Translations under genes and position numbers: made by a program
Shown here: positions 493 through 49,213 of the stretch, piece after piece
Position numbering within the stretch: position 1 is the first letter of the stretch
Layout of the letters: each line of letters opens with the position of its first letter
Origin: Heterotrichella gracilis
Lineage: Eukaryota; Sar; Xanthophyceae; Tribonematales; Xanthonemataceae
Assembly: GCA_032358255.1 (NCBI GenBank)
Contig: JAULBX010026330.1
Span: forward strand, 1 to 49,520
Length of the DNA: 49,520 nucleotides
Reading direction: 5' to 3'
The notes under the pieces: generated by a model
Databases searched by the model: none
What the model was told of the DNA's origin: nothing
What the model saw: the letters and a program-made list of their open reading frames with translations, nothing else

Positions 493-3258
493 TCACTTCA
501 TGGCCCCGCACTTGAAGCACTCCCGCTTGCGCGCAAAGTTGTGCTGGCCGCACATCACGCAGTACCAGTCGCCTGCGCACAAGGGGCAAATGAAAGTCAG
601 CCTTGCCGCTTGACGCAAACCTCCAGACATCACCAAGCACTAGCTGTGGTCATTTGTTTCCCCAATTGTATGGGGGTGCAACTCCTCACACACCTTAAAC
701 CCTAAACAGACGAGTAATCACAATAGACCCTGCCCTCCACCAGGCAAAGCATACCTGGCCGGACGTCGTGCCTCGGCGCCTTGTAACGACTCCTCCTCCA
801 TGACCAACCCTAATGAGATAACTCAAAATCCTAGAATATACCTGGCCGGACGTCGTTCCTCAGCACCTCACAATGACCCCTCCTCCATGAAGAACCCTAA
901 TCACTAAACCTTCAATCCTAAACCCCAAGCCATAAACCCTACCTGGCCGGACGTCGTGCCTGGGTGCCTCGTAGTGCCCCTTCTCCATGAAAAAGCGCGC
1001 CCTGTCGGTCCTCCGGTACTCCTGATTCCTCTCCCCCTGGACCCCCGAGGGCTGCAGGGCGCCCCCGATGGTGGGGACTGGGCGGGGCCCCTTCCGCTCC
1101 CCACCGGCCTCTGGCATGTGCCAACGCACCTCCAGCTCGTCTGCAGTGGGTGGGCGGTGGGTGGGTGGATGGTTGCAGGTGTGGGTGGATGGGGAGTGTG
1201 TGATGGGTACTGGGACAGCTGATGGGTGCAGAGGGGACAATGCAAGTGCGGGTGAAAGCGGCTGGTGTGGTGCTCTGACTCTGGATGCAATAATTCCGAA
1301 CATGCGCAATGACAGGGATCCACCTCAGCAGCAACCCCCCTCCCCTTTTCACCCCCCACCACTCACCTGCCATGGCCACCAGCTGTGGGTCCGCCTCCGC
1401 CGCAGCCAGGGCCAGGATGTCAGGCAGAATGTTTAGGCTAGCGGTCTCAAGAGCGACTACATCTGTGGTGGAAACAGGAGAGGGGAATCATCAGTATCAG
1501 AATACGCAGTGATGATGAAAGCCCACCGGCCAGCTCCTCCCAAACCCTATTACCTTTCACAAAACTCAAAACCCTACACCCTCACATTCGTAGCACGTTG
1601 CTCCCAGCACGTCCCTGTTGCTCCCAGCACGTCGCTCCCAGCACGTCCCACGTTGCTCCGCAGCACGTTGCTCCCAGCAACGGACACCCTATCACCAATC
1701 CCCTGAAACCCAAATTCAAACCCCTAAGTCCCTCACCTGCGTACCTCCTCGCCTACGCCAGTTCCTCCCTGCCGCCCAGTGCACAAAACCCTACACCCCA
1801 ACCCGTAGACCCTTACCTGCGTAGCTCCTTGCCTGCACCAGCTCCTCCCTATTCCCTGCCAACTCCACCCACACGTTGAAAACCCTAAACCCTTCGCCTG
1901 AACCCTGTACCCCCACCTGCGTAGCTCCTTGCCTGCGCCAGCTCGTCCCTGTTGCCCAGCGCCCACAGCAGGCACAGCCCCTCACAAAACCCTAAACCCA
2001 ACATTAGGGTTTGAACCCTTACCGGCATAGCTCCTTGCCTGCGCCAGCTCCTCCCTGTTTCCCAGCGCCCACAGCAGGCGCAGCACGTCGGAGAACTGCG
2101 CGGGTCCCCCCTCGGGTGCAGGCAGGTGCTCCTTGGTCACAAAGGTGGCGGTCAGGCGGCGGAGCGCGTTCTCGCTCTGCAAGGGGATGGTGGTGTTGGT
2201 GGTGTGGTGACGGTGTGCGTGTGTGGTGGGGAGTGTGGAAGCGGGTAGGTATTTGGAGGGGCATGCGCCAAAAGACTAGGTGGAGGAGTGGTGTGCTTTC
2301 CATGTGCACCATGCCATGTGCCCCACCACTGCACCACTTCCGCACCTTCCTGCCCTGGTACCCTAAACCCTAACCCTCAACCCTAATCCCTCACCAACTC
2401 CGCACGCTGCTGCCCAGGTACCCTAAACCCTATACCATGCACCACCTCCACACCTTTCTTCCCAGGTATGGCGGCTGTGCGGCTGCCAGCGCCTCCAGCT
2501 TCTCAATCTCAAGCTGGTACAGTATATCCCGCCGCTCCCGCCCAAAGTGCAGCACCCCGCGCTTGATGGGACCCTTCTCCTTGCCAGCCACTACGTCCCG
2601 CCTGAGACATAAATGCAGCAGGGGTTCAGGGCGAGGACAAAATCACCCTAGAACAGTTAGGGGATTGAAACACGTGGGCCAAACACGGGGCAGCACAACC
2701 AATTAACAAGTGGGCAAGCCGCAGGTCTCCACCCCCCCGCTGGAGACAGAAATGCAGGGTGAACTCAGGAGCGGGAGGAATGCACCAGAAACACCTGAGA
2801 AAACTGGCAAAGAGCCTGGGAAGTGAACAACAACCCAAGGTACATATGGGGGTATACCATCGACCCCACCTGCTAGTCAGCTGTGGCTGCTCATCAAAGT
2901 GGCCCTGCTCATAGATCAGCGTCAGAAAATCGCGCCACAGGCTGTCGTACTGGGCGAACGGCCGGTCGTCAACCTCTGGCGGGGTCTCGTCGCCCGCATC
3001 GAGGGGTTGCGGGTTCGATTCCTGTGGTGGCGGGACCTCGTCCGTGATGGGCAGCGGCTCACTTGCATCGCTGGTTTCGATGGCGGCGTCGTCGCTGGCT
3101 GATGTGTAGCGCCTTGTGGGGTGGAGGGACGGGGAGGGTTTCAATTGGAAGACGCTGTGCAGGGCGGGTTTGGCGCAGGCGAGGCGGTGGCATGGCCAGG
3201 CATGGCCGCCTAGGTGGGGCCTGGCGGGGCCCGCCCTGCAGAGGGATTGCCAGGACAT
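493..3258 (-). CDS. RanBP2-type zinc-finger protein, probably organelle-targeted
   Basis: Six exons join in phase: 3258-2870, 2601-2454, 2176-2023, 1462-1367, 1140-943 and 572-493, giving 354 residues. The first ~55 residues are rich in Arg, Ser and Ala and poor in acid, like a mitochondrial or plastid transit peptide. The middle is predicted helical and charged. The last exon junction builds a canonical RanBP2 finger, PGDWYC followed by C, N and CFKC (W-x-C-x2-C-x3-N-x6-C-x2-C). In plants, organellar RanBP2-finger proteins (VAR3, OZ family) act in plastid biogenesis and RNA editing; a similar role here is inference. The finger normally binds single-stranded RNA. The TGA stop overlaps a strong donor (GTGAGT), so further fingers could lie left of the window. 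Exon 2, 3 and 5 donors have extra downstream copies. It shares a 562-bp divergent promoter region with the Msp1 gene. Confidence 0.82.
752..890 (-). repeat. Two decoy copies of the exon 5 donor junction (zinc-finger gene)
   Basis: Segments 752-802 and 841-890 repeat the last ~50 bases of exon 5 (943-992) with its donor. Both share the CTGGCCGGACGTCGT core and the TCCTCCATGA side. They lie downstream of the true donor in the direction of transcription, separated by telomere-like and AT-rich filler. They have no acceptor of their own, so I read them as tandem-duplicated junctions rather than exons. Confidence 0.8.
1593..1680. repeat. Short tandem repeat (GCTCCCAGCACGT-type unit)
   Basis: Five to six imperfect copies of a 13-17 base unit built on GCTCCCAGCACGT lie head to tail inside intron 3 of the zinc-finger gene. 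No coding role is apparent. Confidence 0.8.
1738..1976 (-). repeat. Three decoy copies of the exon 3 donor junction (zinc-finger gene)
   Basis: Segments near 1738-1785, 1818-1860 and 1918-1976 repeat the 3' end of exon 3 (2023-2080), which encodes LWALGNREELAQARSYAG. The copies grow more degenerate with distance; the nearest still reads ALGNRDELAQARSYAG and ends in a GT donor. Telomere-like ACCCTAAACCC filler separates them. None has an upstream acceptor. Confidence 0.85.
2332..2423 (-). repeat. Two decoy copies of the exon 2 donor junction (zinc-finger gene)
   Basis: Segments 2332-2363 and 2392-2423 resemble the exon 2/intron 2 junction at about 2439-2470 and are separated by CCCTAAACCCTAACCC filler. 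Both lie on the intron side of the true donor. Confidence 0.7.
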
Positions 3259-3820: not shown

Positions 3821-6800
3821 ATGTCAGAGCCACGCGGCAGGAGCCGAGGCAACCGGGACATCTTGATAGAGGTGAGGCAACGCATGCATGTGACGATGCC
3901 ACCTGACTGTTACAAGCAGGATCTGGCGGTGGTGCAGCCACAGGCACTGTTGTTGGGTCTATGTTGGTTACTTTTGGTTATATACGTACGGCTATGATAT
4001 GGAATATTGGCTGGGGAACTGACAATGACCATGGTTGGCATCTGGGTGCAAAACTACGGAACGGTTTCTCACCGGCTGTGTGCGATGCTGCAGCTGCTGT
4101 ACCTGGGAGGCACCTTCCTTGGGTCATGGTGGCTTATGAGCATGGCACTCAAGAGGCTGGACCCCTCGAGAGCCAACAAAAAAGCGGTAAGGATAGGCCC
4201 TCACCACCCACCAACATTTGGCGCGTTTTTCTTGAACCACCCAAAGTTGAGTGACTGGTTTCCTGGGTTACTTTCAGGCTGACAGGCGGAAAAAGGACAT
4301 CCAAAGACGGCTTGGGAGGAAGGTGGAGACCGATGGAGCATACGAGGATGTAAGTAGTGGCGTTGGAACTTGCCACATGGAATTGGACCAACTTGATGGA
4401 TAACATGCAGTGTGACACTTTGTTGGCATGTCTTGCAGGTGATTGCCATGGAAGTGGTCAACCCAGACGACATCGACGTCACCTTGAAGGACGTGGGGGG
4501 CCTGGAGGACGTCATCGAGGCCATGGTGAGTTGGTGGCAGCGTGGGTTGTTTCGTGGTGTGTGGATTACAACGTTGCCAGGGGTGGTGTCATGGGTGGTC
4601 ATACTTGCCCCACAAACAAGCCTTTAATCTTCGCATCTGCAAGCCACCTTGTGGCGGTTGGCAATACCGACTGGGTACTTTGCGCCACACCCCAGCCACC
4701 TCACTCACTTGGAAGCTCGGGGACCTTGTTGGCAGCTATAGGGGACAGGGGTGGCAGCTTGTGAAGGACAGGGGTGCATGGCGTGTGGCTGCTACTTCTG
4801 GATGCATCTCTTCTGGACCATACATGGGTACTGTACGTGCAAACCCAGCTCCTTATCCGCTAACCCCACCCACCCACCCACCCTCTAAAGTCCCTCCCAT
4901 GTAGCAGCGCAACCAGGTAATGACCCCCCTCAGTGCCCTAAACCCTTAGGAGTTGAGCATTTTGCTCTGAGCCATAACCCCTTCCATTCCCTCCCCTGCA
5001 GCGCAACCAGGTGATCGCCCCCCTGCAGTGCCCCGAGCTGTTCCGTGCCCCCCTGCTGCGCCAGGCCAAGGGCATGCTGCTGTACGGGCCACCAGGCACA
5101 GGAAAAACCCTGCTGGCAAAGGTAGGCACAGGCAAAACCCTACTGGTTAAAAGCACACGCCGCGTGTGTGGATAGTGGCATGCATGTCAACAAGAGCTAG
5201 TTGGATTGAGAGGAAGGATTGTTGTTTATTCATAATTACGCCATTGGTAAGGCAGCTGTGGCCTGACAATGTTCACATCTGGGGCATGTGTAGGGAATGC
5301 ATACACTTAACCCTGTATACCCTTGATCATGCAGAGTGAACATGCGGCACATGTCAGGCCACGTTGACCTGCATAAACCCTTCATTCCGCTACATGCCGG
5401 CGCTTGCCAAAGACCCTAAACCGCAAGCCACCTTTCAAAGGGACCTGAATCCTCAACGCTAAAATGTCCTTCATTCGCCTACCCATAGGCGCTTGCCAAG
5501 GAGTCCCAGGCCATGCTCATCAAACCTAACCTAAACCCTAAACCCTTCACCGCAGGCGCTTGCCAAGGAGTCCCAGGCCATGCTCATCAAACCTAACCTA
5601 AACCTTAAACCCTTCACCGCAGGCGCTTGCCAAGGAGTCCCAGGCCATGTTCATTAACATCCGCGCATCCACCCTGCTCAGCAAGTGGTTTGGGGACACG
5701 CAGAAGCTGGTCAGCGCTATCTTCTCACTGGCGTACAAGATCCAGCCATGCATCATCTTCATAGGTGGGTGGGGAGGAGGTGGTGGTGGAGAGGGTGGGT
5801 GGTGTGTAGCTGGTTTGGAGGCACCCAGAGGCTGATCCGTTGTGATGTAGGTGCTAGAACCCAAGATACAGCCATGCGTGGTGTGCATGTGTTTGGGAGC
5901 GGCAGCGAGGGATGGCAGGTGGCAAGAAGGGGATGGCGGTGATGGTGGGAGGCGTTTGTGGGAACCACAGTAAATAACCACCTTCCTAAACCCCTACCGC
6001 AGACGAGGTGGATGCGCTGCTGGGCAAGCGGCGGGACGCCGAGCACGAGGCGGTGACCTCCATGAAGACTGAGTTCATGCAGCTGTGGGATGGGTTCATG
6101 ACCTCGGCCAGCAACGTCATGGTGCTGGCCGCCACCAACCGGCCCTATGACCTGGACCCAGCGGTGCTGCGGCGCTTCTCAATCAAATACGAGGTGGGTG
6201 GGGGTTTGGTTGTCGGCCTCTGTCTAGGGTTTCAAGGGTGTCAGGGTTTTAGGGCTTAGGGTTGTAGCCACCGCCAGCACGTCATGGTGCTTGCGGCCAC
6301 ACAACGACCATATGACCTGGATGCGGGGGTACTGCGGCGCTTCTCAATCAAATACGAGGTGGGGCCCCATCCTTGTCAGACGCCATGGGAGTGATGTAGG
6401 TGGTTTCCTGCAGGCTTGGGATTTATGACCTCAGCCGCCATGCAATAAGGTGTTACGATCTCTGCCGCAAATGTCATGTTGCTGCTCCCCGCCCCTGGTC
6501 CCCATTGCTTCCTGGGACCATCATGGCCCTGCACCTGCGCAGCCAGGAGGGGCATCATGGCCCTGCACGCCGCAGCCAGCAGTGGCACGGTGGAAGCCGA
6601 CCTGCTCTCACACGCACGTGCACGCGCACAGGCATTCGTGCACACCCTCCTCCATTCATACTTATTTCACCCCCATCCCCACAAGACTCCCATCTGCGAC
6701 CCTGCAGGTACCCCTCCCCGACGTCGCCCAGCGCCAGGCCATCATGGCCCTGCACCTGCGGCGCCACGCGGCAGACAGCGGGGGCGCAGTAGATGCCAAT

Positions 6801-8533
6801 CTGCTCTCAGATGACCCTGTGCGGGAGGGTCTGAGTGCCCTGCAGTGGGCAGCCGAGCACACTCGGGGGTACAGTGGCAGCGACCTGCAGGAGCTTCTTT
6901 CGGAGGCTGCGGCCATCCCTGTGCGGGAGTACATCCGGGCGATGGAGCAGGGCGAGTAAGTAGCGGGTGGTTGGCGCTTGTAGGGTTGTACCGTGTGGAG
7001 GTCGTAAGCATCATCCAGTGCTTAAAATTGACCTGTAGGCTGAGCACATGGGCATGGAAGCATGGCATGGAGGCGTGGAAAGAAATGAATATCTTTTTCT
7101 ATCATTTTTCAATTTTCTTCCTTTTAAGTTATGTTGATCGGATGGTGCATCATGCTGCCATAGGAGGATCTGTGTCGTATGTCCCCCCGCTTTGACCCCT
7201 CCCCCCTCCCTCCCACAGGGTGGACTCCGCCTCCGCGCCGCGCCCGCTCTCCCTGTCTGACATAGAGCGCGCCACCGAGCTGTACAAGCCCTCATCAGCG
7301 CACGCGGAGGAGTACCGGCAGCAGGAGGCGGCAGCCATGCCGGTATCATCGGAGATGCTTGGGTCCTTCTTCAGCGCGATGATGCAGGTAGGGTTGTTTA
7401 CCTTAAACCCTTACAAATGAAATCCTAAACCCTAAACTTTAAATCCTTAAACCCTAAACCGCCAGCAGGAGGCGCCAGCCATGCTGGTGTCGCCGGAGAT
7501 GCTTGGGTCCTTTTTCAACGCGATGATGCAGGTAGGTTTTGGACTCAAAACCCTACACCTTTAACCCTAAACCACAGGACCTTAATCCCTCCACCCTAAA
7601 ACCTTCATTAAATCCTAAAACCCTAAGATCTTAATCCCTACCGTGCCACTGTGTTGTCGACAACGCTGGCGCCTTCTATACCCGTGCGCTATAGCCCGCT
7701 GCTGTGCCGGTGGGGTATTGCGCTGCGAACGAAAGTGCTCCCCCAGCGGTTGTGACCCGGCTGCATGTATAAGGTGCCAGCTGAAGGTCAATTGCATTCT
7801 TGTGCTGGCTGGTGTGATACCTCGGTGGACAGGATCATCAGGTGGAGCACCAGCCAGAAAAAAAGGGTGCATTTGACCTTGAGCTGTGCTGCACAAACAT
7901 GCAGCCAGGCCACAACCCCTGGGAAGAACACGTTTGTCCCCAGCGCAACGCCCCAGCAGCGGACCGCAGTGGACGAATATGTTTTCGACGCTGGATGTGT
8001 GCGCCGCTCTGTATGTGGCGCTGAAACCCTGAAGCTTTAAACCCTAGGCGGCCATCTTGGTTTTCTTGGGCATGCTGGGTGTGCTTCTCAGCCGCGCCCT
8101 GGTACAGGTGGTCCTAAAGCCCTAGAGGGCCTGGGGCCCTTAAACCCTGTATTCTAAACCCCAGAGACCCTAAAAACTCGAATGTCCTCAGTAATCGTGC
8201 CTGGGATGCCTACAGGCCGCTCTGTAGCTGTTTCATTCATGCAAAACATGCACCACCCCTCACCTGCGACCCCCCACCACAACCCCCACCCTGCAGGCGA
8301 GCACACTGTCCAATGGCAGTGCCATGCGCGTCGACAGCAGCAACGGGGCTCGCACCCCCCCCACCGCCGCCCGCCCCTCCCGCCCACCCTCCGGCAGCAG
8401 CAACGGCGGTGGCAACGGGCACGTGAATGGTCTGGGGAATGGGCTGGGGGCGGGGAGCAGGAGTGGTTCTGGGGTGGGGGGGGATGCGTTTGAGGATGCA
8501 GACGAGGGGGAGGAGGGGGGTGGTGACAAGTAG
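3821..8533 (+). CDS. MSP1: Msp1/ATAD1-type outer-membrane AAA ATPase
   Basis: Ten exons join in phase: 3821-3871, 4094-4186, 4278-4349, 4439-4525, 5002-5121, 5623-5764, 6003-6193, 6708-6955, 7219-7387 and 8297-8533, giving 469 residues. A short charged head precedes one membrane helix ([19 protein letters not shown], ~18-36), then LDP and a basic linker, as in plant Msp1. The AAA core shows Walker A GPPGTGKT, pore loop [10 protein letters not shown], Walker B FIDEVDALL spanning the exon 6/7 junction, sensor-1 LAATNRP and AVLRRF. Msp1 extracts mislocalised tail-anchored proteins from the mitochondrial outer membrane and peroxisomes. The last exon encodes a Gly/Ser/Asn-rich acidic tail that family members usually lack. 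Exons 5 to 9 are flanked by partial junction copies. The first exon is short and rests on its donor, phase and position, so it is less certain than the rest. Confidence 0.9.
4901..4937 (+). repeat. Decoy copy of the Msp1 exon 5 acceptor junction
   Basis: The stretch repeats AGCGCAACCAGGT and the following ~20 bases of the exon 5 start (from 5002) about 96 bases upstream of the true acceptor. A second short echo of the exon 5 end (GGCAAAACCCTACTGG) follows the true donor at about 5126-5146. Confidence 0.75.
5489..5622 (+). repeat. Two 67-bp tandem copies of the Msp1 exon 6 acceptor junction
   Basis: Units start at 5489, 5556 and (the true exon) 5623, a constant spacing of 67 bases. The first two units differ by one substitution. 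Each copy starts right after an AG, repeats the first ~31 bases of exon 6 (ALAKESQAM), then runs into AACCTAAACCCTAAACCC and a new CACCGCAG acceptor. A 67-base unit shifts frame, so splicing to either upstream acceptor without removing the rest would break the protein. Confidence 0.92.
6276..6363 (+). repeat. Decoy copy of the Msp1 exon 7 donor junction
   Basis: About 80 bases repeat the end of exon 7 (sensor-1 region through ATCAAATACGAG and a GTGGGG donor), with ~10 substitutions. They are separated from the true donor at 6193 by GGGTTTCAAGGGTG-type filler. Confidence 0.88.
6480..6610 (+). repeat. Degenerate copies of Msp1 exon 8 sequence in intron 7
   Basis: ATCATGGCCCTGCACCTGCG and related words occur at about 6521 and 6553, ahead of true exon 8, where the same words lie at 6739-6760. 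The second copy runs on to a match of the ANLLSD-coding part. They have no open frame of their own. Confidence 0.75.
7052..7169. repeat. Interspersed repeat, copy 1 (CATGGAGG minisatellite plus tail)
   Basis: A GGCATGGAAGCATGGCATGG block at about 7050-7080 is followed, after an AT-rich stretch, by the 19-mer CATGCTGCCATAGGAGGAT at 7151-7169. The same 19-mer ends a longer GCATGG array at 9379-9592. Two copies with the same order of parts suggest an interspersed repeat family. Confidence 0.6.
7462..7535 (+). repeat. Decoy copy of the Msp1 exon 9 donor junction
   Basis: Seventy-odd bases repeat the end of exon 9 (CAGCAGGAGGCG through GCGATGATGCAG and a GTAGG donor), about 145 bases after the true donor at 7387. 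The gap holds AACCCTAAACTTTAAATCC-type telomere-like sequence. Confidence 0.9.
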
Positions 8534-9378: not shown

Positions 9379-9592
9379 GCATGGAGGCATGGCATGGAGG
9401 CATGGCAAGGATGGCATGGAGGCCTGGCCAAGGCAAGGATGGCATGGAGGCCCAAGGCAAGGATGGCATGGAGGCCAAGGCAAGGATGGCATGGAGGCCA
9501 AGGCAAGGATGGCATGGAGGCCTTGGCATGGAGGCATGGCATGGCAAGGGTGCGTGGCGTGAATGGATGCAAACATGCTGCCATAGGAGGAT
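9379..9592. repeat. GCATGGAGG minisatellite with conserved tail (interspersed repeat, copy 2)
   Basis: About eight imperfect units built from GGATGGCATGGAGGC and GGCCAAGGCAA run head to tail to ~9545. The 19-mer CATGCTGCCATAGGAGGAT follows at 9574-9592, identical to 7151-7169. Confidence 0.85.
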
Positions 9593-9800: not shown

Positions 9801-9875
9801 CCCTCAACCACCCCACACTGCTCAACTCCTTCCCACCTATTGCCCCCTGTTCCCTCCAATACCCACCCAGCAACC

Positions 9876-11953: not shown

Positions 11954-14900
11954 TCATCCCTGCAGCAGCCTCTCCACCGCCGCATTCACATTTCCCCCGG
12001 TGGCCTGCAGCGCCGCCACGTTGGCACCAGCGTCCCAGAAGCCCATGTCCTGTGCAAGGGGGAGAAATGGGTCGGAGAGAGACCTCCAGAACAAGTAGCC
12101 AGGGTACAGAGGTGGGCAGCAACAGGCGATTGCCAATACTGCCCCACATTCTTTTTGCTCCTCCTGGTACTACTCACGTACATGGGTTCCAGCGATACAG
12201 CGATAAAGCCAGATTAGCAGTCTACCAGTGGTACATTCCTCACCAACACCCAGCCAACACAATCTGTAAACGGGGGGCCTACGGTGCAATGTCAACCCTA
12301 CATTGCGGCTGGCAGCCGCAAACCCTAAATCCTGAGCCTCTCACATCCTCTCCTCACCTGCAACTGCTGCAGCTGCTGCGCGTACGTGGTCTCAGGGTCA
12401 GCCGCCATCCCCCCTGGCCCCCCACCCAGTCCACCAAACATGTTGGCCAGTGCAGCCAAGTCAGGGCCACCCGCACCCCCCATCCCCCCCATGCCAGGGT
12501 TGCCTCCTGCTGCCCCTGGCGCCCCGAACATGCCCCCCAGCCCGCTGGACTGCAGCTGGCCCATGGCCTGCTGCATCTGCATCATTGCCTGCATGTTCTG
12601 TGGGTTGAGCAGGTTGCGCATGAAGTCGGGGTTGGCCATGGCGCTCCTGCAGGAAGAGTTTGAAACATATAGTTTTAGGTTTTATGGAAAGAAGTTAGGG
12701 TTGGGCGTGAAATGACGGTTGACCATACCGTACTGGCGATAGGGGTTGGCCCCCCTCTGCTAAAAACAATTATAAAGCATGGTTTTCACTTTCGCCCCAG
12801 GCAAATTTTAATTTTAAAGATTTCGCCCCAATTAAAATAGGGCATTTTTTGGCTGAACTACACTGCGTCGAGCGTCGTTATGTAGCTTTTGGTAGCACTC
12901 TGTTCGCCATATTCCTGTCGTTTCTTTTCGAAACAGTTGAACAGTGCTGGATTACAGTTTACGACCAACGCATGCATGCGGGAAACCTTGCGCGGGACCA
13001 CGATCCGGGCGGCAAGTTACAGTCGTCTATGGAACAAACAGCACGAACAGTTGTATAGAGCCCTAAAACAAGGTCGAAGGTATATATAGAGCCAGGATTT
13101 GGGTTTGAACACGAGGAAGAGCAATTATAGCTGATTCGCCCCCAAAATAGGCAATTTTAAAATTTCGCCCCAAGCCAGGGGGTGGGAGTTTCTGCAACTT
13201 TTGACACCATCGTGGAGTTGACACACTTGCATGCACATTTGAGGACAACTTGGGACCCTCTAGCTGCCCTGAAAACGCCATAAAAAACGACGATATTTTG
13301 GGTTGGGGGTGGGGGGGGTGGTTTCAGGCCTTCAAATAAATTTCAGAAGAAAATTTTAAAGTCCTCATATTTTTTTTGAGGAGGTATTTGACGGGTTTGC
13401 TGCATGGCACAAGCTCACAGATGGTCTAAGGTGTCATTTGCACACACTTAGATTGACATTGCTGCAACCTAAACATGGTTGTGGTCCACATGTCCCTGGG
13501 CATATACATTCTTTGTAATAATGTTAAGATTTATTTTATTATTTTATTACATTTAATGGTATTTATCCAGTATATAATCAAGAAAGTAAATTCAATTTAA
13601 TTTATGTTTATTATCAATAATTTTAATTTTTAAAAATACAGAATTTGCCATTCATATATTTGGCTGGTCCAGAGAGCATCAGCGCCCTTCCTAGTGTTCA
13701 AATCAGCCCTTAAAGTTTAAGAATACAATAAAATGGGGGGTGGGTGGGTCAAAGGTCTGGGGGTCCAAACAATTTTAGGATGGTGTTTGAAAAAATTTTT
13801 TCTCCCACCCCCTGCCCAAGCCAAAACGTTTAATTTTAAAATTTCGCCTAAAACAATTATAGCATTATTGGGGGCCAACCCCTATCGCCAGTACGGTAAT
13901 AACTCATGCACTTGTAGAGTACAGCCAGCGTTTATGCCCACCTGAGCCCCGTGTTCGCCTCCATCATCGCTTTCATCTGCAACTTGAAATATTCCAAGTG
14001 TTTTAGGGTTTTCAGATCATGCGCACCTGAGCCCCGGGTTTGCGTCCATCATGGCCCTCATCTGCGGGTTGCTGTTGGCCATTGCCTCCATCATGCCCGG
14101 CTGGCTCAGCGTCTGGTCCATGAGCTGCTGGAAGGCAGGGTTGTTCATGTACTGCATCATGGTGCTGGGGTCCATGCCGCTGGGAAGACCCAGGCTGTCC
14201 ATGCCAGGCAGTGTGGAACCGCCCAGGCCTGCGGAGTGCACACAGGACATTTAAAAAAGTTGCAAGGTGCCCAACTAGTGGGTTATTTCTACATAACCCC
14301 CCAGCTCCGCATTTGTGGTTCCCTTCCTTCCTTTTCTGAGGTACACCGAGCATAGAAGCCGTTTCTATGCTTGCAACCAACATCACGCTGTTTCCCGCGC
14401 CCCAGCCACATAAAAATAGGGTACATACCTGCAGGCGTGCCTGTGGCTGCGCCGCCAGCGCCTGTTTGGCCCGCGCCCGACCAGGGGTTGGGCAGCGGGG
14501 CGGTGTTGGGCACGCTGCTTGCGGCCGCGGGTGCGGCGGGCGTGCCGGCGGCGGTGGCGCCTGCTGCCTGCCCCGAGGTGGTGGGTGGGTTGGCAAACAT
14601 GTTGGTGTCGGCAGCATCCAGGAGGGGCTCCTGTACAAGGGAGGAATGCAAGTGGGACGATGTGGCGAGGCATGGGGAATCACCTGTGTGAGAATGTTGG
14701 TGGGGCGATGCTGTGCAAGAATGCATCCATGCCACTGTTAGAAATGGCATGTGCATGGTGGTGGGTGCTGGCAAGATGATGTAGAAAGGAGTTGGTGGCT
14801 GTTGCATCTAAGAGGGGCTCCTTGACAATTTGGGGTGCGTGGTGGGTGCAGCGGGGGAGGTAGTGTGGTGCACCATGGGGCAATCCTTCAGCGTGGGCAT

Positions 14901-34468: not shown

Positions 34469-34605
34469 TCAGTCCACGCTCTCCATCAAAGGTGATGTCC
34501 CAGCTCCTACACAGCTCTTGATCAGCAGAGGGGCGCACTCAGTCCACAATTGCCTCCTCATTGGGCCCCCATCCCACGTTTTTTATGGCTCAGTCCACAA
34601 TCCCC
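34469..34605 (-). repeat. Copies of the SnRK2 stop-codon region
   Basis: CTCAGTCCACAATC, the end of the true last exon (34672-34686), recurs with changes at ~34469-34490, ~34533-34556 and ~34588-34605, downstream of the gene. This parallels the copies behind the DUF1995 stop. Confidence 0.65.
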
Positions 34606-34674
34606 CCAGCACCTACATGGCTCTTCGCTGGTTGACCACTGCTGATCACTGCTGTTGATCATGTCCTCATGCAC

Positions 34675-38289: not shown

Positions 38290-41200
38290 TCATCCCTTGA
38301 CATCGTCAAACCTCCATATGGTGGCGTCATCGCAGCAGAACAGCAGTACGGAGCCGTCATGGCTCAGCGCAGTCTGGCGCACCTGCAAGACGAAGGGGGG
38401 TGGTACGTGGTTTGTCACACAGGGGAAACCCTAAACCCTAAATAACGGCACGGAGCCGTCGCGGCTCAGCGCGGTTTGGCGCACCTGCAAGATTGGGGTA
38501 GCAGTTGGTGTCATGCGGGTAACAAACAAACTGTGACACGCAATTCGGGTGAAATGCAGGCGGATTTTCCACCGCGCAATGCCTAGCTGTGGAAAAGCTC
38601 GGCAGGGGGTGGCGCCAAGGATAAAAATTAATAGTAGGTTATGGGGGGAGAGGGAGGGGGTGGTACATGTGGTGGTCCCAGTTGGGAACAGCAAGATGGC
38701 ATTATCATGATGCCCATTTGCGTCGCTGCCGCAAACACTCATGCATGGATGTACAGTTACAATAAATATGCAGTGCTTGATAGCGGCTTATTTCTACTAC
38801 ACATTGCTCAACTGTTTATCGTGTTATCTTGAGCCCCTTCCCCCTCCCCCTCCCCTGCCCCTCACCGTTGCTTTCCCCCCCTGTGGCCGCTTCAGCTTTG
38901 CCTTTGGTTGCAGCCCCCCTTGGTCCAGGTCCCACACAAACACCTTGCCTGAGCGGGTACCGCAGGCTAGGGTATTGCAGCCGTAGTCCATGCTGAACCG
39001 CATCCACCACACATCGGCATCCTCTAATTGGTACTCCTGCGGAAGAGGGGGTAGGGTAATGTCAGCATAGTGCCAAGGCTGGGGGCGAGGGGCAAAATTT
39101 GTGGGCGGTGGTGGGTTGGTACTGCTGTCAAGACAGCACCACATGTGCCTTCCACCACTCACATAGACCAATTGCACGCAGCTTTTATCCATTTCTAGGG
39201 CCGGGACTCACCTGGGCGCCAGATCACAATTCGGTTGTCCACACTCTTGGAAACGACAACTCCACCCACCCACACGCCGCCACCCTTGCAATACATCCCG
39301 TATGCATTAATGCAACCGCCTGCCTGGCATGCACCTTGCCCCCACCAACGTTGCCCCCACCCCCCCCCACTCACATGGACCGGGTGCACATAGCCCTTGT
39401 TCACAATGATAAACCCTGAATAATAAACCCTAAACCCCTACCCCGCCGTCCACTCACATAGACCAGGTGCACATAGCCCTTATCCACATTGTATGGCCGG
39501 GACTCGTCAGGCCGCCACATCACAATCTTGTTGTCCACGCTCTTGGACATGACAAAGTCGCCCAGCCATCGCACGCAGTCCACGTAGTTCCAGTGCACCT
39601 TGTGAGAGGAAAAAACGGGGACCGGCATGGTTTTTGCGGAGAAGGCGCGCTCGCTGCTGGCATCCCAGGCGAAGGACTGGTCGATGGCCTCCTGGAAATC
39701 TGCACGTGGCGGGGTTGTATGCTGTGGTTGTATGGCCGGGGGTGGGGTGGGGGAGGGTTGGTTCAAGTGGGCGGGGTGATCTGGCTTTGTAGCTGGTATG
39801 CTTGTAATAATAATAATAATAATAATGATTGGGAGGGTAGTTCAATGGCCATGGGTAGTAATCATAGAACGAGGCCAGGAAATGTATGCAGCCAGCTTTG
39901 GTACACCTAGTAAAGGACTGGTCAATGATCTCCTAGTGGTCTGCATGTGGGAGGGAGGTGAGGTTGTGTGCGATATTTGTGTGGCTGGGGATGGGGTGGG
40001 GGGCACATAGACATGGGTGGTGATGACAGGACAAGGGAGGAAAGATGTATGCGGTGCGCTTGGTATGGACACAGGTCAATCGGAGGCACCCTCAAGGGTC
40101 TCACTGACCCTTGACCAGTGGGCCAAAGCGATCATGATGCATGATGCATGACGCCCAGGCATCAAGTGATGACCATATGTGTGCCAGTGCTGTCCATGTG
40201 AAGGGTTTTAGGGTTTGTGGTGCGCCCACCTTTGAGCGACCATATCTTGACCGTGTTGTCCATGCCGCATGATACCACCAGATCGGGGTTCACTGGGTTC
40301 CAATCCTGCGGGATTATTAAGGATTGAGCAAGGGTAATACGATACCCTAAACTGGGGAGGACGATCCAAGGAGAGCATGTCACGCATGAGTTGCTTAATA
40401 CTGTGCAATAAAATGCCCATTGCCCACAGACCAACCGTAACCCCTGAACCACCATTTACTTAGTTAGTTAGTTAGTTACATGCATTCCAGCAAAATAGCC
40501 ACATTAGCAGTCAGTCTTGCACATGCGGCGCCACGCAGCTCTTTCCTGGCACTGTTTGAACCATCTATTGATCCCACGCGACTTGAGGTCCTGAACTACC
40601 ATTGGCCAAGTCTAACTTACCCCCCCCCTTTCCGTGCTTGCTCACCCACCCAACCCCTCCCCCACACCCCGCACACGTACTATGCTCAGCACTTCGTTCG
40701 TGTGGCTCCCCTCCCCACTCATGACCAGCACACACTGGTGGGTGGTGAGGTTCCACAGGCGCAGGGATTGGTCCTGGAAGGCGGGGATGGGGGGGGGTAA
40801 GCCAGGGGGGGTTAGGGACGGGGAGCTGAGTGGATTGCCCATATGCATGAATTTGCCCTATTGCTGCAGCGGGTGTCACCGCAACAGTATGCAAAGCCCT
40901 ACTAGGGTAATGCACATGCACCATCGCTACGAAAATGGTGGGCATGCGCCGTGATGGTGTGCAAACCCTTCTAGGACAATGCAAACCTACCTTGCTAGCA
41001 GTCTGCACCAGTGCGAGCTGCAGCGGATGCACCGCAACGCCGTGCAAACCCTACTACGAAAATGCGGACCCTGCTAGGGTTTTGCAAACTTACCCTACTT
41101 GCAGTCAGCACCAGTGCGGGCTGCAAGGGGTGCACTGCGATGTCGTTGATGGCGCCACCGTGGCCCTGGTAGATCTGCAAGGGAGGGAAGACTGTGTGAA

Positions 41201-43859: not shown

Positions 43860-43970
43860 ATGTCTCACACCCACTACCACCTCCCCCCCTCCAGGCCCCT
43901 CCGCCACCCACACACCTTCCACCGAGCCCTCACCTGCCTGGCCCGCCCAGTGGTCCAAGCAGCCAACGTG

Positions 43971-46900
43971 ATGCCCGCCAAAGATACCCGCACCCCCCAA
44001 GAGGTCCAGCAGCTCCTCCAGACCCGAAAAAACAAGAACAGCATCCCCTCGAGCCGCAAGTTCATTCGCTTGGAGAGGAAGGGAGACCAGATCTTGCTGG
44101 AGGATGGCACGGTGCTGTTTGACGACCTCAACCCTGTGGCCTCGCCATCGGTGGTGGATGACGACTGCATGGTGCTGGGGTTTGAGGCAGCGGGGCCCAC
44201 CGACATGGCGGACTTCCCCGTTGGAAAGGTGGGGATCCCCACTTCCCCTCGCCTCACCATACTTTTGGGAACTGTGGTTCTGCATATCCGTATGCATGCT
44301 GCTCCCATCTCTCCCTCTCCTCACCACTGCATGGCATGCCCCAAGAAGCTACATGGCAGCTGAAGCAACTGCCTCAGATAGTGGGAATGCCTCAATGCCT
44401 GCCAAGCCGCCACATGCCACACACACACACACAGATTCTAACACAGTCACTCACTCAATTACCACTCCTGCCGCAGTTCCAATTCTCCCGCTTTTTGGCT
44501 GCCGCCCGCTGCAAGCTGTGGTGGATGACACCAGAGTGGGGTACCAGCTGCCAGCAGCTTCCCCCCGAGACCCAGTTCCTGCTGGCTGAGGTCAAGGAAG
44601 GGGGACCCTATGTCATTTTGCTGCCGCTGATCGATGAGGACACTTTTAGGGGCACGTTGTGGCCGCCAAGGTAAAGATTACCCTAAATGGAGGCAAATAC
44701 CCTAGCGTAGCCTGTAGACCAGGATGCAACCCGCACACCAACCCACGGCGCCGCCTCCTCCGATACCCTTGCCGTGCGCATGGAGTCGGGCTGCCAGACA
44801 GTCATGGATTAACCCGCTCCAGGGTTTAGGGTTCAAAACTGGTTGGCGCTCCTTGTCCAACATCACTTGCTCATCCGGCTACAATCCTGAGTTGTACGGA
44901 AACTAAGCAAACGACTAAATTTCTCCCCCACAGACGCGAAAATGGCGGCGCCGCCTCCCCCGACACCCTTGTCCTGCGCATGGAGTCTGGCTGCCAGACT
45001 GTCATGGGGTCGCGATTCCAGCGCGCCCTCTACCTGGCTGCCGCATGGGATCCCTTTGAGCTTGTGGATGCTGCGGTGGCGGGGGCTGCTGCGCTGTCGG
45101 GGGGCGCCAAGCCCCTGTGGCAGAAGCAGGTGCCCGCCTCGCTGGACCTGTTTGGGTGGTGCACGTGGGACGCGTTCTACAGCAGCGTGTCGGCCAGAGG
45201 TGGGTGGCGGGGTGGTAGTGGCGGGGGGTGACGGTGGGGGGTGATGGTGGTGTGTGTGTCGATGGGTGGGTGTGTGGGGTAGGGTTGCAGCAGCTTGTTG
45301 ACCAGGGGCGAGGTGCACGTGGATGCCCGTCATTCATGCATGGCAGTCACTAAACATGGCCATGCTACATACCACCACACACAAAATACGTGAAACTTAG
45401 CTACCAACCCATCGCACGCTGACGCACTCAATCCCAACATTGAAACCCAACCCCAACCCCACCCGCACTAACCCCCTTTCCCAGGCATCTGCGATGGCCT
45501 GACCAGCCTGAACAGCAATGGCGTGCACCCCCGCCTGCTCATCATTGACGACGGCTGGCAGATGACGGACGTGGACCGCAAGTTCAGGCAGGCCCCAACT
45601 TCCAGGCAGATGCCGCAGGTATGCACTTCAATAGGAATATCCAACCGTGAGGTCGTCGTGCCTGAATTGCCTGTACCAATTGACGCCAGTACTTCAATAA
45701 GCGGTTTCATATCTGCCAGTTGATACTCCAACCCCAATCTCACTCCCCACCCACACAGCAACCCCAAATGTGCGCCGCCAACCAAAGCTACATCGACTCA
45801 TAAACCCTAAACCCTAAACATCGCTTTCCTCCCCTGCCAGGTGGGCGCTGCCAGTCAGAGCCACATCGACTCATAAACCCTAAACCCTAAACATTGCTTT
45901 TCTCTCCTGCCAGGTGGGCGCCGCCAACCAGAGCTACATCGACGCAGAGATTGAGGTGCTGAGCAGTGTGGCGCGCGTGTCAGAGGTCATCCCACCAGGC
46001 AGCTCCACAGGTGGGTTTAGGGTTTAGGGTCATGGTTCGTAGGTGGTGGGGTGGCGAGTGGGTGTAGTGGGGGCTGTGTGCATGTGGGGTGGGTGGCTGG
46101 GGAGGCGGCAAAAGCATATGCATGCACGCATACATGCCCCGTGTTTGCGGGTGCTGGAAGTTGGTGGGTTGTACACGCAACTGGCTGTTGTGCGTGATAC
46201 ACTCGTCAGCAACATTGCAAAGCATGACGACCCTTCTCAACGCACTTGCCCCTGTTTGTAAACCCCCTTCGCTAAGATCCGCTAGCAGCTGGTGCGTTGT
46301 CGAAATGTGAAATTGACTTCAAGCCCCTGACCCGACACCTGATTTTCTTTTGTTAACCCTACCCACACCCTTGCAGGTCGCTTGCTGGAGGAGATTGCTT
46401 CTGTGGACGAGGCGCCTGATGCCGCCAAGTTCCGCCCCCAACACAAGGGGGAGGAAGGGATGAAGCTCAAGAAAATAGAGGAGGAAAAGGAGCAGACAGC
46501 GCTGCAGCAGCAGGGCTCGATGATGAGGAGGTGGGTGGCGGTGGTGATGGGGTTGTGGGAGGCGGTAAAGAGGGTTTGATTGAGTTTCAGCAGCAGGGGT
46601 CAGTGCTCATGATGCGGAATATCAAGTGGGGTTGGGGAGGGTTATGCAACCTCATCAAGCAGGGCTGATGCTCAGCATGTATACATGACCTGTGGTCAGT
46701 AAGTACTGCGTACAGTATGGCCACTTTGTACACAGGCACATGGCTGCTCCACCATTGCAATCCCCACCCTCCACCACCACCTCACCCCCCCACCCCCCAC
46801 CCCGCAGCGCCTCCATGAAGATTGTGCAGACCTGCCTGGGATTCGTCATGGGCATCCTCTCCGCCATCCTCCTCACATTCTACCAGTGGGTGGTGGACCC

Positions 46901-49213
46901 AGCTGCCCCCGGGAGCTGGCCAGTGCGCTTCTTCGCCTACCTGGCGCATGGCCCCCTGAAGGATATGATGCTGGATTTCTTCGCCACCAGCGGCAACTTC
47001 ACGCGCAGGCTGATCAGCGTGCGCGCCAACGGCAAGTTCTCGGGGATCGACGCGGGGGCGGACGAGTTCTTCTCGGTGCGTTTGGGGATGGGGGTGGGGC
47101 GGGTCATGTGCAACACATTTCCGGTGGAGTCACACTGTACTAAAGAAATTTCTCAGCCATAATTCTCCCCACACCCATTCCCTGCAGGGCCGGCTTGCCA
47201 ACTGCCCAGCGTTGTTCCCCACCTGAAAACCCTGAACCCTAAAGTGGAAACTCTTAACCCTAATCCTTACTTCTCCCACTCCCTGCAGGACCGGCCTGCC
47301 GACCTGCGCAGCGTTGTCTCCCACCTGAAGACCACCTTTGGGCTTGACCACATCTACTGCTGGCACGGGCTGAGCGCATACTGGGCGGGGGTGGCGGGGC
47401 CGGAGGAGTCGGAGGTGGGTGGGGAGGGTGGGGGGTGGCGAGGGTGGACGTGGTGGTGGTGGTGATTTTGGGCTTTTGTATATTCTGCTGTTGGCTGAGC
47501 ATACTGAGGGCATGCTGGCTCAAAATCTAGGGCATAAAAATTCTGGAATCTTATTTACGACTTCCGCTCTCACCACCCTTGAGTGAGAGGGAATGAAACC
47601 CTGAACCCGAACCTCGATGCCTGTGCAGGTTGCCACCTACCAGTCGCGCATCGTGTACGCCACACCCACCGCGGGTCTGTCCGAGATTGAGCCCTCGCTG
47701 CTGTGGAACCCAGCGGTGATCAGCGGGGTGGGCGTGCCGCAGGACGCGCAGCAGCTGTTTTTGGACATGCACGAGTACCTGGCGTCGGCAGGTGGGTGCC
47801 ATGTGTGTGGAGGGGGGTTTGGGGTGGTGGTGACAGTGAAGGAAGTGGCGATATTATGATCCTGAATTTTGTAATGAATAAAACGGATGGGCATGGACGA
47901 GATGCCCAGCACCTGTTTGACCATGCATGCATCACCCTAATTGGTGGTGATTGAGGAATGGGTTGGGTTTGATACTTTGTGTGCACGGATAAATGTGGTT
48001 GTTGCATCTTCCCCTCCTCCACCATCACCGGCCCCTCACCCACCCATCCCCTCATCCCCAGGCATCAGCGGTGTGAAGGTGGACTGCCAGGCTGGAGTGG
48101 GCCTGGTAGGCAGCGCGACAGGAGGCGGCCCCTCGGCTGCCCTGGCCTTCCACCAGGCATTGGAGCACAGCGTGGCGCTGCACTTCCCTGGAAACCACGT
48201 CATCAACTGCATGTGCCACTCCACTGAGAACGTGTACAGGTGGGTAGGGTGGGGTAGGGTACAGTAGTGGGTGTGGGGGGAAGACATGAGTGCAGGTGTG
48301 TGGGTTCAGCAACCCACACACCTGTCACTACAGTGATTACTGCATGCACATACGCGCGTGCATTGTGCATGCGCATGCACAATGCATGCACAATGCATGC
48401 ATTAAATGATGTACGGGTGATGGCAAGCATGTGAGAGTGTAAACCAGATCCTTGTGCATGTACATCAATTCCATGCAGGCAATTTACCGGAGGGAATGAG
48501 TCGGATCATGGTGCATGCGAGGAAATGAGTCTGGTCATTGTGCATGGGATTGCCACCCCCACCCACCCACACCCATACCCACTCCACACCCCACTCCCCA
48601 CCGCAGGCACCTCAACAGCGCAGTCACCCGCGCATCAGACGACTTCTACCCGCGGGAGGCTGCGTCTTCCTCGCCCCACATCGCTGCATGCGCCTTCAAC
48701 TCCACCTTCTTTGGGGCGCTGGCGCAGCCTGACTGGGACATGTTCCATTCAAAGCATCCAGCAGGTAGGGGCCGCCTTGATATTAGAAATGCAATTCTAT
48801 ATGCAGATGTGTTGTCACTGTAGAATGCAGCATTGAAGAGCGACTTTTATGTGTACATAAATCTGAATTTAATTCTGTGGCGGGCCGATGTGTAGAAGTC
48901 CCAGAAAACCAAGGGTTGCTGTTTGAAGATTGCCACCAAAATTGTAGAAGAGGGGTCTGGGCAGAGGGTTATGGCAGAGCCTTTTACAATGTACACAAAT
49001 CCCATCCCATGCACAGGCGAGCTGCACGCCACAGCCCGTGCGGTGTCTGGCGGTCCTGTGTACATCAGCGACGCGCCCGGGAACCACGACCTAGGGTTGC
49101 TGAAGCGCCTGGTGCTGGGGGATGGGACTGTGCTGCGCGCGCTCATGCCTGGCCGGCCCACTGCGGATAGCCTGTTCTGTGATGTGCTGAGGGATGGGAA
49201 AAGCCTGCTCAAG
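43971..49213 (+). CDS. Raffinose synthase / alkaline alpha-galactosidase (SIP) family protein, 3' end outside window
   Basis: Twelve exons join in phase: 43971-44228, 44477-44670, 44934-45199, 45485-45618, 45914-46010, 46377-46530, 46808-47075, 47289-47414, 47629-47791, 48062-48239, 48607-48764 and 49017-49213, giving 731 residues so far. A start at 43860 adds 37 residues and is equally open. Family marks in order: [60 protein letters not shown] (nucleophile Asp), ASDDFYP (acid/base region), QPDWDMFHS and [13 protein letters not shown]. These enzymes move or remove galactose on raffinose-family sugars; substrate cannot be told from sequence. Between DDGWQ and DHIYCWH there is an unusually long insert (exons 5-7) with a charged coiled segment and a probable membrane helix ([20 protein letters not shown]). 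The last exon ends in a donor (49213), so the C-terminal part is missing only because the window ends. Confidence 0.93.
44737..44812 (+). repeat. Copy of the start of exon 3, raffinose-synthase-like gene
   Basis: GGCGCCGCCTCCTCCGATAC through GCTGCCAGACAGTCATGG matches 44946-45006 of exon 3 with about seven changes. It lies ~205 bases upstream and runs into TAACCC. Confidence 0.9.
45770..45913 (+). repeat. Two ~72-bp tandem copies of the exon 5 acceptor junction, raffinose-synthase-like gene
   Basis: Units start at ~45770, 45841 and the true exon at 45914 (spacing 71 and 73). The middle copy keeps the CCTGCCAG acceptor, reads [11 protein letters not shown] and then a TAA stop within CATAAACCCTAAACCC. 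The first copy has lost its acceptor. Using the middle acceptor would stop translation. Confidence 0.93.
47181..47232 (+). repeat. Decoy copy of the exon 8 acceptor junction, raffinose-synthase-like gene
   Basis: CCCTGCAGGGCCGGCTTGCC and the next ~25 bases repeat 47281-47326 with several changes, 99 bases upstream. It ends in CCTGAAAACCCTGAACCC, a degenerate telomere-like run. Confidence 0.9.
48293..48410. repeat. Hairpin plus long GCATGC palindromes in intron 10
   Basis: A 14-base perfect stem with a 4-base loop lies at 48293-48324 (outer CAGGTGTGTGGGTT). A perfect 28-base palindrome centred on GCATGC|GCATGC follows at 48359-48386, then overlapping AATGCATGCACAATGCATGC. All fall within an intron of the raffinose-synthase-like gene. 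Confidence 0.9.

Follow-up and report, generated by a model that had tools for sequence, protein, structure and literature searches.

Approximately one exon edge in ten in the Heterotrichella gracilis DNA that we sampled bears a decayed copy of itself in the adjoining intron, nearly always on the side where the copy is harmless, and the genome's own telomere repeat (TTTAGGG/CCCTAAA) is present in 34 of 55 spacers between copy and exon, as compared with 117 of 618 control segments. We think it probable that the copies arose by head-to-tail duplication during break repair, with telomere sequence as filler and with selection as a sieve, a process that would have lengthened introns. An earlier note, made from the letters of this DNA, described the exon copies; it overlooked the telomere repeat at the joints, which is the best clue to the mechanism.

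The window is the whole stretch of 49,520 nt that was analysed. Its plus-strand exons were curated by hand, and those of the minus strand were taken from a gene finder; eight of its nine genes encode a Pfam domain, with none found in gene 1. The sample consisted of the window, 22 stretches of 10 kb and 7 short loci, and contained 412 exons in 57 predicted genes. The joint two-strand gene finder recovered 33-35 of the 39 hand-curated exons (33 in its final form). A first self-trained finder and a one-strand version were discarded, having produced hundreds of tiny exons or genes chained across the contig. Excluded before counting were three pieces of contig C1 that are bacterial by their open reading frames (L009, L029 and L030), a locus that is part of the window (L001), predicted genes scoring below 25 and exons shorter than 24 nt. 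Spacers longer than 170 nt (160 in one analysis) were omitted from the spacer tests.

The earlier note had reported partial exon copies in eight of nine genes, more than 25 cases in all, between 752 and 47232. At a local alignment score of at least 17, we found 38 copies in eight of the nine genes. They affect 26 of the 136 exon edges, divided evenly between upstream and downstream (13 of 68 each); the first copy begins at 755 and the last finishes at 47231 (see the table). The layout described there, with copies of the 5′ edge upstream of the acceptor and copies of the 3′ edge downstream of the donor, fits 37 of the 38. Eleven upstream copies touch the 5′ edge of the exon and 5 derive from its 5′ half; downstream, 21 touch the 3′ edge and one, of low complexity, comes from the 5′ half. 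No inverted exon match was found in the introns of the window.

The earlier note had also proposed looking more widely for an excess of copies and for their side, and both are evident in the sample. Of 360 upstream edges, 36 have a copy, and of 357 downstream edges, 40; length-matched introns of other genes led us to expect 1.0 and 0.13, and inverted-strand matches numbered 3 and 1, respectively. The statement that decoy splice sites surround each exon was, given these frequencies, exaggerated. Among all 101 copies in the sample, 43 are upstream (29 touching the 5′ edge, 13 internal, all from the 5′ half, and one touching the 3′ edge) and 58 are downstream (46 touching the 3′ edge, 11 internal, 10 of them from the 3′ half, and one a whole short exon). 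The middle range of copy length is approximately 23-89 bp. With the model frozen, a 20-kb hold-out yielded copies at 3 of 77 edges (0.07 expected): one of a 5′ edge upstream, one of a 3′ edge downstream and one internal upstream, with a telomere heptamer in one of the three spacers. All three lie in one of the two stretches, and the copy rate, therefore, differs between loci.

Exon copies and telomere tracts in the window, with positions numbered from its first letter
Feature	Position	Strand	Remarks
True exon, gene 1	943..1140	-	3′-edge copies at 755-803, 842-894
Copy of 3′ edge of exon 943-1140	755..803	-	GT kept, 85% identity
Copy of 3′ edge of exon 943-1140	842..894	-	GT kept, 81%
Three 3′-edge copies of exon 2023-2176	1739..1990	-	1739-1785, 1819-1856, 1919-1990
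Telomere tracts among copies of exon 2023-2176	1880-1893, 1987-1999	-	
Copy of 5′ edge of exon 5002-5121 (AAA ATPase gene)	4908..4938	+	AG kept
Telomere tract at inner end of copy 4908..4938	4936-4946	+	
Copy of 3′ edge of exon 5002-5121 (AAA ATPase gene)	5124..5146	+	
Two 5′-edge copies of exon 5623-5764	5489..5590	+	5489-5523, 5556-5590; telomere tract 5530-5546 between
Copy of 3′ edge (91 nt) of exon 6003-6193	6268..6358	+	GT kept
Two copies from 5′ half of exon 6708-6955	6518..6610	+	6518-6550, 6566-6610
Copy of 3′ edge of exon 7219-7387	7458..7531	+	Preceded by telomere tract 7424-7460
Copy of 3′ edge of exon 14027-14228 (ubiquilin gene)	13942..13980	-	Telomere tract 14002-14011 between
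Three 3′-edge copies of exon 18953-19605	19781..20316	+	19781-19842, 20018-20079, 20255-20316; 237-base tandem array
Copy of 3′ edge of exon 22651-22741	22885..22942	+	93%, GT kept
Weak copy of 5′ edge of exon 24755-24908	24554..24624	+	77%
Two 3′-edge copies of exon 24755-24908	24964..25125	+	24964-25016 (98%), 25072-25125 (74%)
Telomere tracts preceding each 3′-edge copy of exon 24755-24908	24942-24953, 25049-25060	+	
Copy of 5′ edge of exon 26075-26273 (SET gene)	25972..26011	+	98%, AG kept
Telomere tracts 26018-26032, 26059-26068	26018..26068	+	Spacer between copy 25972..26011 and exon 26075-26273
Copy of 3′ edge of exon 26075-26273 (SET gene)	26391..26441	+	
Copy from 5′ half of exon 26627-26856	26552..26576	+	
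Copy of end of terminal exon 29224-29412, in 3′ flank	29034..29098	-	Exon stop TAG then GGTTTT
Copy from 5′ half of exon 29711-29917	30118..30186	-	
Two 3′-edge copies of exon 31058-31174	30799..30989	-	30799-30818, 30965-30989
Telomere tracts 30987-30998, 31015-31055	30987..31055	-	Spacer of exon 31058-31174 copies
Copy of 5′ edge of exon 34675-34845 (SnRK2-like kinase gene)	34914..34954	-	95%, AG kept
Copy of 5′ edge of exon 35300-35464	35547..35569	-	Spacer holds telomere tract 35490-35500
Copy of 5′ edge of exon 38312-38382 (WD40 gene)	38441..38484	-	AG kept; telomere tract 38426-38442 between
Two 3′-edge copies of exon 39458-39699	39163..39408	-	39163-39283, 39375-39408; spacer holds telomere tract 39424-39437
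Copy of 3′ edge of exon 41094-41174	40995..41043	-	
Copy from 5′ part of exon 44934-45199 (raffinose synthase-like gene)	44746..44807	+	
Two 5′-edge copies of exon 45914-46010	45769..45873	+	45769-45800, 45841-45873
Telomere tracts directly after each 5′-edge copy of exon 45914-46010	45801-45819, 45874-45892	+	
Copy of 5′ edge of exon 47289-47414	47190..47231	+	Telomere-like repeats after copy

Head-to-tail duplication across the exon-intron junction is supported by homology that runs over the junction in 42 of the 71 edge copies tested: 18 of the 28 copies at acceptors and 24 of the 43 at donors have an alignment that continues into the flanking intron and exceeds each of the 12 controls. In 6 of the 15 copies with an identity of at least 0.94, intron-flank homology is not above that of the controls, which indicates that the duplicated unit ended at or near the junction. 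The earlier note had envisaged serial duplication across the splice junction, and this mechanism as a whole is partly supported: homology does cross the junction, but some arrays are copies of copies. The 237-base tandem array at 19543-20347 matches itself at 94%, whereas its copies are 84-87% like the exon, and it is, therefore, not a series of separate exon copies. The claim that divergence rises with distance from the exon was not confirmed (Spearman -0.09, P 0.42, n = 76); at 16 multi-copy edges, the nearest copy was more like the exon than the farthest in 10, less so in 5 and tied in one.

Mismatches between copy and exon number 122, 107 and 209 at the three codon positions, and 29 of 31 indels in the copies are not multiples of three. 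The copies thus look like neutral, non-coding relics, the exon having retained a coding pattern of change. As had been noted earlier, the splice dinucleotides are mostly retained (35 of 43 edge copies keep GT and 23 of 28 keep AG), at about the frequency predicted by neutral decay (32.6 and 22.0), and this comparison gave no sign of selection either to keep or to kill the decoy sites. The decoys score like the true sites, which are approximately 26-144 bases away, and their use would introduce a stop in 54 of 58 cases. The suggestion that such duplication would leave the mRNA unchanged while adding decoys fits the sequences.

That TTTAGGG is the telomere repeat follows from its position at contig ends: minus-strand runs begin within 7 bases of the start of six contigs (C70, C140, C526, C609, C717 and C770), and a plus-strand run halts 3 bases before the 200,630-base end of C607. 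Genome-wide, there are 5,629 occurrences of TTTAGGGTTTAGGG and 5 of the reversed pattern. In a motif-free scan of heptamers, 60 classes occurred in 6 or more spacers, and among these the telomere class ranked first (P 4.6e-11; the next, 1e-4). Introner elements would be recognizable by one sequence common to many introns; at the level of heptamers, only the telomere class and its near variants stand out in the spacers. Telomere heptamers occur in 12 of the 24 spacers on the acceptor side and in 22 of the 29 on the donor side, as compared with 3.8 and 5.3 in matched copy-free introns, and neither count was reached in 2000 draws; 21 of the 55 spacers have no exact heptamer. Among the 35 single-copy edges, 16 have the repeat in the spacer alone, 3 in an outer flank of equal length alone, 4 in both and 12 in neither (P 0.004; 13 versus 3, P 0.02, for spacer only and flank only under a looser definition of the repeat). 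The repeat, therefore, sits at the joint, outside the duplicated unit. At the 17 multi-copy edges, the corresponding numbers are 5, 1, 9 and 2, and the contrast is not significant.

The association is also seen when the tracts are taken as the starting point. Of the 82 intronic telomere tracts that lie no more than 120 nt from a splice site, 40 are flanked by direct duplications (1.1 expected, no inverted match), as are 8 of 27 deeper intronic tracts (0.1 expected) and 5 of 20 intergenic tracts (0.0 expected, one inverted match); 60 of 109 intronic tracts have no flanking duplication. The duplications around tracts span 19-93 bases, and 37 of the 49 intronic ones include exon sequence. Introns with a tract of at least 11 nt more often hold a copy than those without one, both upstream (13 of 62 versus 23 of 298, P 0.004) and downstream (15 of 60 versus 25 of 297, P 0.001). 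In that analysis, the inverted control gave one match at offsets of 20-300, the range used for direct repeats; 33 further inverted matches, at offsets below 20, are palindromes.

One can envision how such a structure would arise. A staggered double-strand break would be filled in, one end would be extended by telomerase (or captured telomeric DNA would be added) and the ends would be joined, so that approximately 40-110 bases over a coding-exon edge would be duplicated head to tail with a short TTTAGGG or CCCTAAA run left between the units. The extra copy would land upstream at an acceptor, downstream at a donor, both within the intron, or in the 3′ flank at a stop codon. Selection would retain only products with the extra copy outside the message, which would account for the side rule, and the copies would then decay neutrally. 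Copies past the stop codon are found in the 3′ flank of 4 of 36 terminal exons (0.3 expected), one of the four with a telomere heptamer. The duplication process may, therefore, not be tied to splice sites, and the side rule is better read as survival under selection than as a property of the junction. Telomere-register microhomology, scored at exon-side breakpoints, was not significant (1.59 versus 1.27, P 0.06, n = 34). A search for an empty site with two DNA queries (2.7 and 5.4 kb) against the same genome gave no near-identical paralogue or second haplotype.

A model of uniformly distributed breaks predicts more intron-only duplications than edge duplications, and the scarcity of the former runs counter to it: we counted 12 independent intron-only pairs and 93 exon/intron pairs. 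In simulations, 102 of 120 intron-only and 118 of 120 edge duplications were detected at 10% divergence, and 74 and 112 at 15%. Because exon-including duplications so far exceed the uniform expectation, exons might be hot spots of breakage. One possible, if doubtful, extension is that telomerase or telomeric DNA repairs breaks that fall preferentially on coding exons and that intron growth is largely an archive of such repairs. If this is true, then a past break at an exon edge would leave behind a fossil copy, marked by telomere repeat, in the flanking intron or 3′ flank.

Other explanations were weighed against telomere-filled duplication. Polymerase-theta-type repair is a recognized type of repair, and a break in an intron could be filled by copying from exon edges close by, telomeric DNA being one template among several; a small nested repeat, seen by eye at the joint near 26003-26020, would agree with this. 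Alone, however, it does not account for the frequent inclusion of exon sequence in the copied stretch, and we think it unlikely. Ordinary tandem duplication by slippage or unequal exchange, with common telomere-like motifs as fragile intron sequence inside the unit, would be in keeping with the general enrichment of tracts in introns (0.815 per kb versus 0.237 per kb in intergenic DNA) and with their presence in both spacer and flank at 9 of the 17 multi-copy edges. It is rendered quite improbable by the single-copy edges, where the tract sits in the spacer and not in the outer flank, which a duplicated unit would have carried along (16 versus 3), and by matched copy-free introns, which hold far fewer telomere heptamers.

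The telomere motif could instead be a splicing element under selection that helps the spliceosome to ignore decoys, acting as G-runs or UAGGG near donors and, near acceptors, as CCCUAAAC, which is branch-point-like. The orientation of the tracts is indeed biased by intron side (39 sense-TTTAGGG versus 21 sense-CCCTAAA at donors, 9 versus 25 at acceptors), which selection through splicing could also explain, and the base composition of intron ends is skewed (G 36.5% and C 18.8% in the first 25 nt; C 37.9% and G 18.7% in the last 25 nt). Yet donors carry both orientations, acceptor tracts are closer to the inner breakpoint (median 4.5 nt) than to the splice site (23 nt), and some intergenic tracts are likewise flanked by duplications; donor tracts are only slightly closer to the inner breakpoint (9 versus 12.5 nt). 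We consider a splicing role for the motif very unlikely as the source of the pattern. That the copies are functional alternative exon ends, or artefacts of the gene models, is scarcely credible: the gene finder did call some copies exons (7469-7531 and 26359-26441), and the decoys are as strong as true sites, but the frame-breaking indels and the stops that decoy use would bring argue against it, as does the kinase, which aligns without gaps to a solved SnRK2 over 264 residues across one copy-bearing junction. Intron birth by junction-aligned duplication was rejected after a survey of 379 introns, since none of the 14 that scored at least 16 and were read aligns junction to junction within 5 bases; one candidate, L012 7474-7659, turned out to be off register by 12 bases and is an ordinary copy on the donor side. 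Several of the 14 are copies that the finder had taken for exons.

With many joints signed by the genome's own telomere repeat, a single genome could reveal the origin of intron growth as well as its age and orientation. The decoys also constitute a natural splicing experiment: because they are as strong as the nearby true sites and their use would nearly always bring a stop, the spliceosome should separate true from decoy by something else. The paucity of intron-only duplications turns exon-directed breaks or repair into a testable question.

Full-text searches of open-licence papers gave no report of telomere-joined exon-edge duplications, although one may exist; the comparisons below refer to excerpts of the reports cited. 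Plant telo boxes are also short telomere motifs within genes, for which the authors propose that telomerase acts on free 3′ ends during transcription (PMC3022908); as excerpted, they peak in the 5′ UTR with no link to duplication, whereas the tracts described here are found within introns, where duplicated units join. Direct repeats at intron borders have likewise been read as break repair near splice sites (PMC11782384), but those are 4-30 bp long (mean 11.4) and surround both borders, unlike the longer, one-sided intronic copies of exon edges. The AGGT model of intron gain by tandem genomic duplication (PMC3443670) shares the head-to-tail duplication and the unchanged message; here, however, existing introns lengthen, and the 379 introns bear no junction-aligned signature of birth. 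In Daphnia, intronic direct repeats have been interpreted as traces of staggered break repair that lengthened introns (PMC4202315), and direct repeats flank filler here as well, but the repeats shared with exons are 4-12 bp there, as compared with approximately 23-89 bp here, and that work deals with new introns; the string "telomer" is absent from its text. In mammals, telomeric repeats inserted at double-strand breaks, some with target site duplication, have been described (PMC2246262): as there, a short tract of the organism's own telomere repeat probably marks a former break here. Duplication accompanies a minority of the mammalian insertions (6 of 130 loci in rodents and 4 of 25 in primates), whereas it flanks 40 of the 82 tracts near splice sites in H. 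gracilis.

Thirty-nine plus-strand exons read by hand served as the training set for a small gene finder, which was run on the window, on 22 stretches of 10 kb and on 7 short loci of the eukaryotic assembly (68.5 Mb, 903 contigs) of which the window represents all of contig C382. The sequence read comes to about 310 kb of a single genome; the finder is the basis for the minus-strand exons and for every exon outside the window, where the models are predictions. Some copies, that is, partial duplicates of an exon in the adjoining intron, were called as exons by the finder, and the copy counts are therefore underestimates. Median lengths in the sample are 294 nt for introns and 156 nt for exons. 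Sample introns have a marked strand asymmetry, being G-rich in their first 25 nt (36.5% G, 18.8% C) and C-rich in their last 25 nt (37.9% C, 18.7% G), and the two ends could pair. The window genes, with GT-AG introns, include an SnRK2-like kinase, a DUF1995 gene and a raffinose synthase; a Pfam domain is present in 8 of the 9 (the query for the SET gene was its C-terminal part only), and the Pfam search found none in gene 1. Taken with the TTTAGGG telomeres, these genes and introns are suggestive of a green alga. The ATPase aligns to solved relatives with gaps. The stretches L009, L029 and L030 are pieces, with 33-37% G+C, of contig C1 (894,458 bases); L029 holds long uninterrupted ORFs, which we take to be Bacteroidetes-like in appearance, and C1 is probably an associated bacterium within the assembly.

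Features located in the window
Position	Feature	Observation
196-304	Dispersed repeat, roughly 100 bases	Also in sampled stretches L002-L008; at least 39 further places, 83-88% identity among the matches listed
12720-13900	Lower-G+C stretch in ubiquilin gene intron; looks like a non-autonomous transposon	40.7% G+C in 13001-14000; inverted ends, by eye, near 12720-12760 and 13860-13900
29214-29226	Stop TAG of DUF1995 gene	Inside telomere-like TAGGGTTTT
34325-34674	Kinase gene 3' flank	Several short ATTGTGGACTGA-like repeats of the stop-codon region
35300-35464	Kinase gene exon	Bears a copy; gapless alignment of the kinase to SAPK10 over 264 residues crosses its junction
35950-36045	Second dispersed repeat, roughly 95 bases, in kinase gene intron	At least 35 other places, 74-89% identity among the matches listed

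When each exon was aligned to its own adjoining introns (same strand, score at least 17), copies were found at 36 of 360 upstream edges, against 1.0 expected from length-matched introns of other genes and 3 on the inverted strand, and at 40 of 357 downstream edges (0.13 expected; inverted strand, 1). Of the 101 copies, those upstream of the exon comprise 29 that touch the 5' edge, 13 internal ones, all in the 5' half, and 1 at the 3' edge. The downstream set consists of 46 copies reaching the 3' edge, 11 from the exon interior, 10 of them in its 3' half, and 1 that spans a short exon. The earlier note had described exon copies inside the introns of eight genes, with 5'-edge copies upstream of the acceptor and 3'-edge copies downstream of the donor. 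The copies hold up, being present in 8 of the 9 window genes and far above control introns in the sample, and 37 of 38 window copies conform to the side rule. A 20 kb hold-out contained copies at 3 of 77 edges (0.07 expected), with one of its two stretches lacking any; two touch the expected edge and the remaining one is internal and upstream.

To judge from their sequence, the copies resemble neutrally decaying remnants of a unit that straddled the splice junction. Mismatches between copy and exon number 122, 107 and 209 at codon positions one, two and three, which we read as even change in the copies and change mainly at third positions in the exons, and 29 of 31 indels in copies break the frame. 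Duplication across the junction, as the earlier note proposed, is borne out for many copies: in 18 of 28 copies at acceptors and 24 of 43 at donors the match continues past the exon into intron sequence, exceeding all 12 controls, the median unit being about 32-35 nt of intron plus 42-50 nt of exon. However, among the 15 copies whose identity is 0.94 or higher, 6 showed no flank homology above controls, and certain units therefore end at or near the junction. Most copies do keep the GT (35/43) or AG (23/28), as had been claimed, but about as often as neutral decay predicts. Because decoys, the splice sites carried by copies, score like true sites (donor, 5.45 vs 5.92; acceptor, 7.06 vs 7.67; neither difference significant), the scores give no mark of decoys as unused; of 58 decoy uses, 54 would introduce a stop.

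TTTAGGG is the telomere repeat of this genome; TTTAGGGTTTAGGG occurs 5,629 times, against 5 for the reversed control, and none of the matches listed genome-wide, which start at contig C2, is from C1. The telomere heptamer is present in 12 of 24 acceptor spacers, between nearest copy and true exon, and in 22 of 29 donor spacers; introns lacking copies gave 3.8 and 5.3 at equal distance, and neither count was reached in 2000 draws. A motif-free heptamer scan placed the AAACCCT class first among 60 classes occurring in at least 6 spacers (34/55 spacers vs 117/618 control segments, P = 4.6e-11), the next ranks being mostly its one-letter variants. At 35 single-copy edges the motif was in the spacer only in 16 cases and in the outer matching flank only in 3 (both, 4; neither, 12; P = 0.004); we conclude, therefore, that it sits between the units and is mostly not co-duplicated. 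At 17 multi-copy edges the contrast (spacer only 5 vs flank only 1; both, 9) was not significant. Tracts of at least 10 exact bases of the repeat have a density of 0.815 per kb in introns (n = 109), 0.237 per kb in intergenic sequence (n = 20) and 0.014 per kb in exons (n = 1). A direct duplication flanks 40 of the 82 intronic tracts near splice sites (1.1 expected; inverted, none), 8 of 27 deeper ones (0.1 expected) and 5 of 20 intergenic ones (0.0 expected; inverted, 1). Four of these last five lie in L019, a sampled stretch without a predicted gene, and thus may belong to an unseen gene. Of 42 terminal exons, 2 have a stop region that overlaps the heptamer.

The most likely mechanism is that a staggered break is filled in and telomeric repeats are added to one end, which would yield unit, telomere filler and unit in that order. 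At an acceptor the downstream unit alone, and at a donor the upstream unit alone, could then act as exon without filler entering the message. Filler of at least three repeats reads TAG or TAA in all frames; filler and stops would exclude wrong-side products, and the side rule would therefore follow from selection. Copies in the 3' flank of terminal exons (4/36 vs 0.3 expected) would agree with selection as its source; initial exons had a copy in 1 of 28 cases (0.05 expected). Stop-codon edges may also show side-selected duplication, and some last exons may be miscalled; just 1 of the 4 copy-bearing 3' flanks has the heptamer. Telomerase is a candidate source of the filler, and captured telomeric fragments would look the same. 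Microhomology at the exon-side breakpoints was not significant.

Evenly spread events would, by our estimate from unit and intron lengths, produce more intron-only than edge duplications, about two to one, yet at offsets of 20-300 there were 93 exon/intron pairs and 22 intron-intron pairs (10 copies of copies, 12 independent), besides 15 intergenic, 12 exon-exon and 6 mixed with intergenic (inverted control, 1). Detection does not account for this deficit, since simulations recovered 102/120 intron-only and 118/120 edge duplications at 10% divergence per copy, and 74/120 and 112/120 at 15%. The process may be biased towards exons, or else copies that contain exon sequence are retained by some means. 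No flanking duplication was found for 60 of the 109 intronic tracts. Tract orientation depends on the side of the intron, a bias that fits either telomerase acting where the broken end carries the exon or splicing as the selective force.

Passages of PMC2246262 describe telomeric insertion at breaks, with target duplication now and then, and passages of PMC4202315 describe the lengthening of introns by staggered breaks; for plant telo boxes, a transcription-linked telomerase model is put forward in PMC3022908. As far as those passages of PMC2246262 and PMC4202315 go, telomeric break insertion and staggered-break intron growth are known separately. A full-text search of open-licence literature found no report of their union, with telomere repeat at the joints of exon-edge duplications that are common in the introns of one genome.
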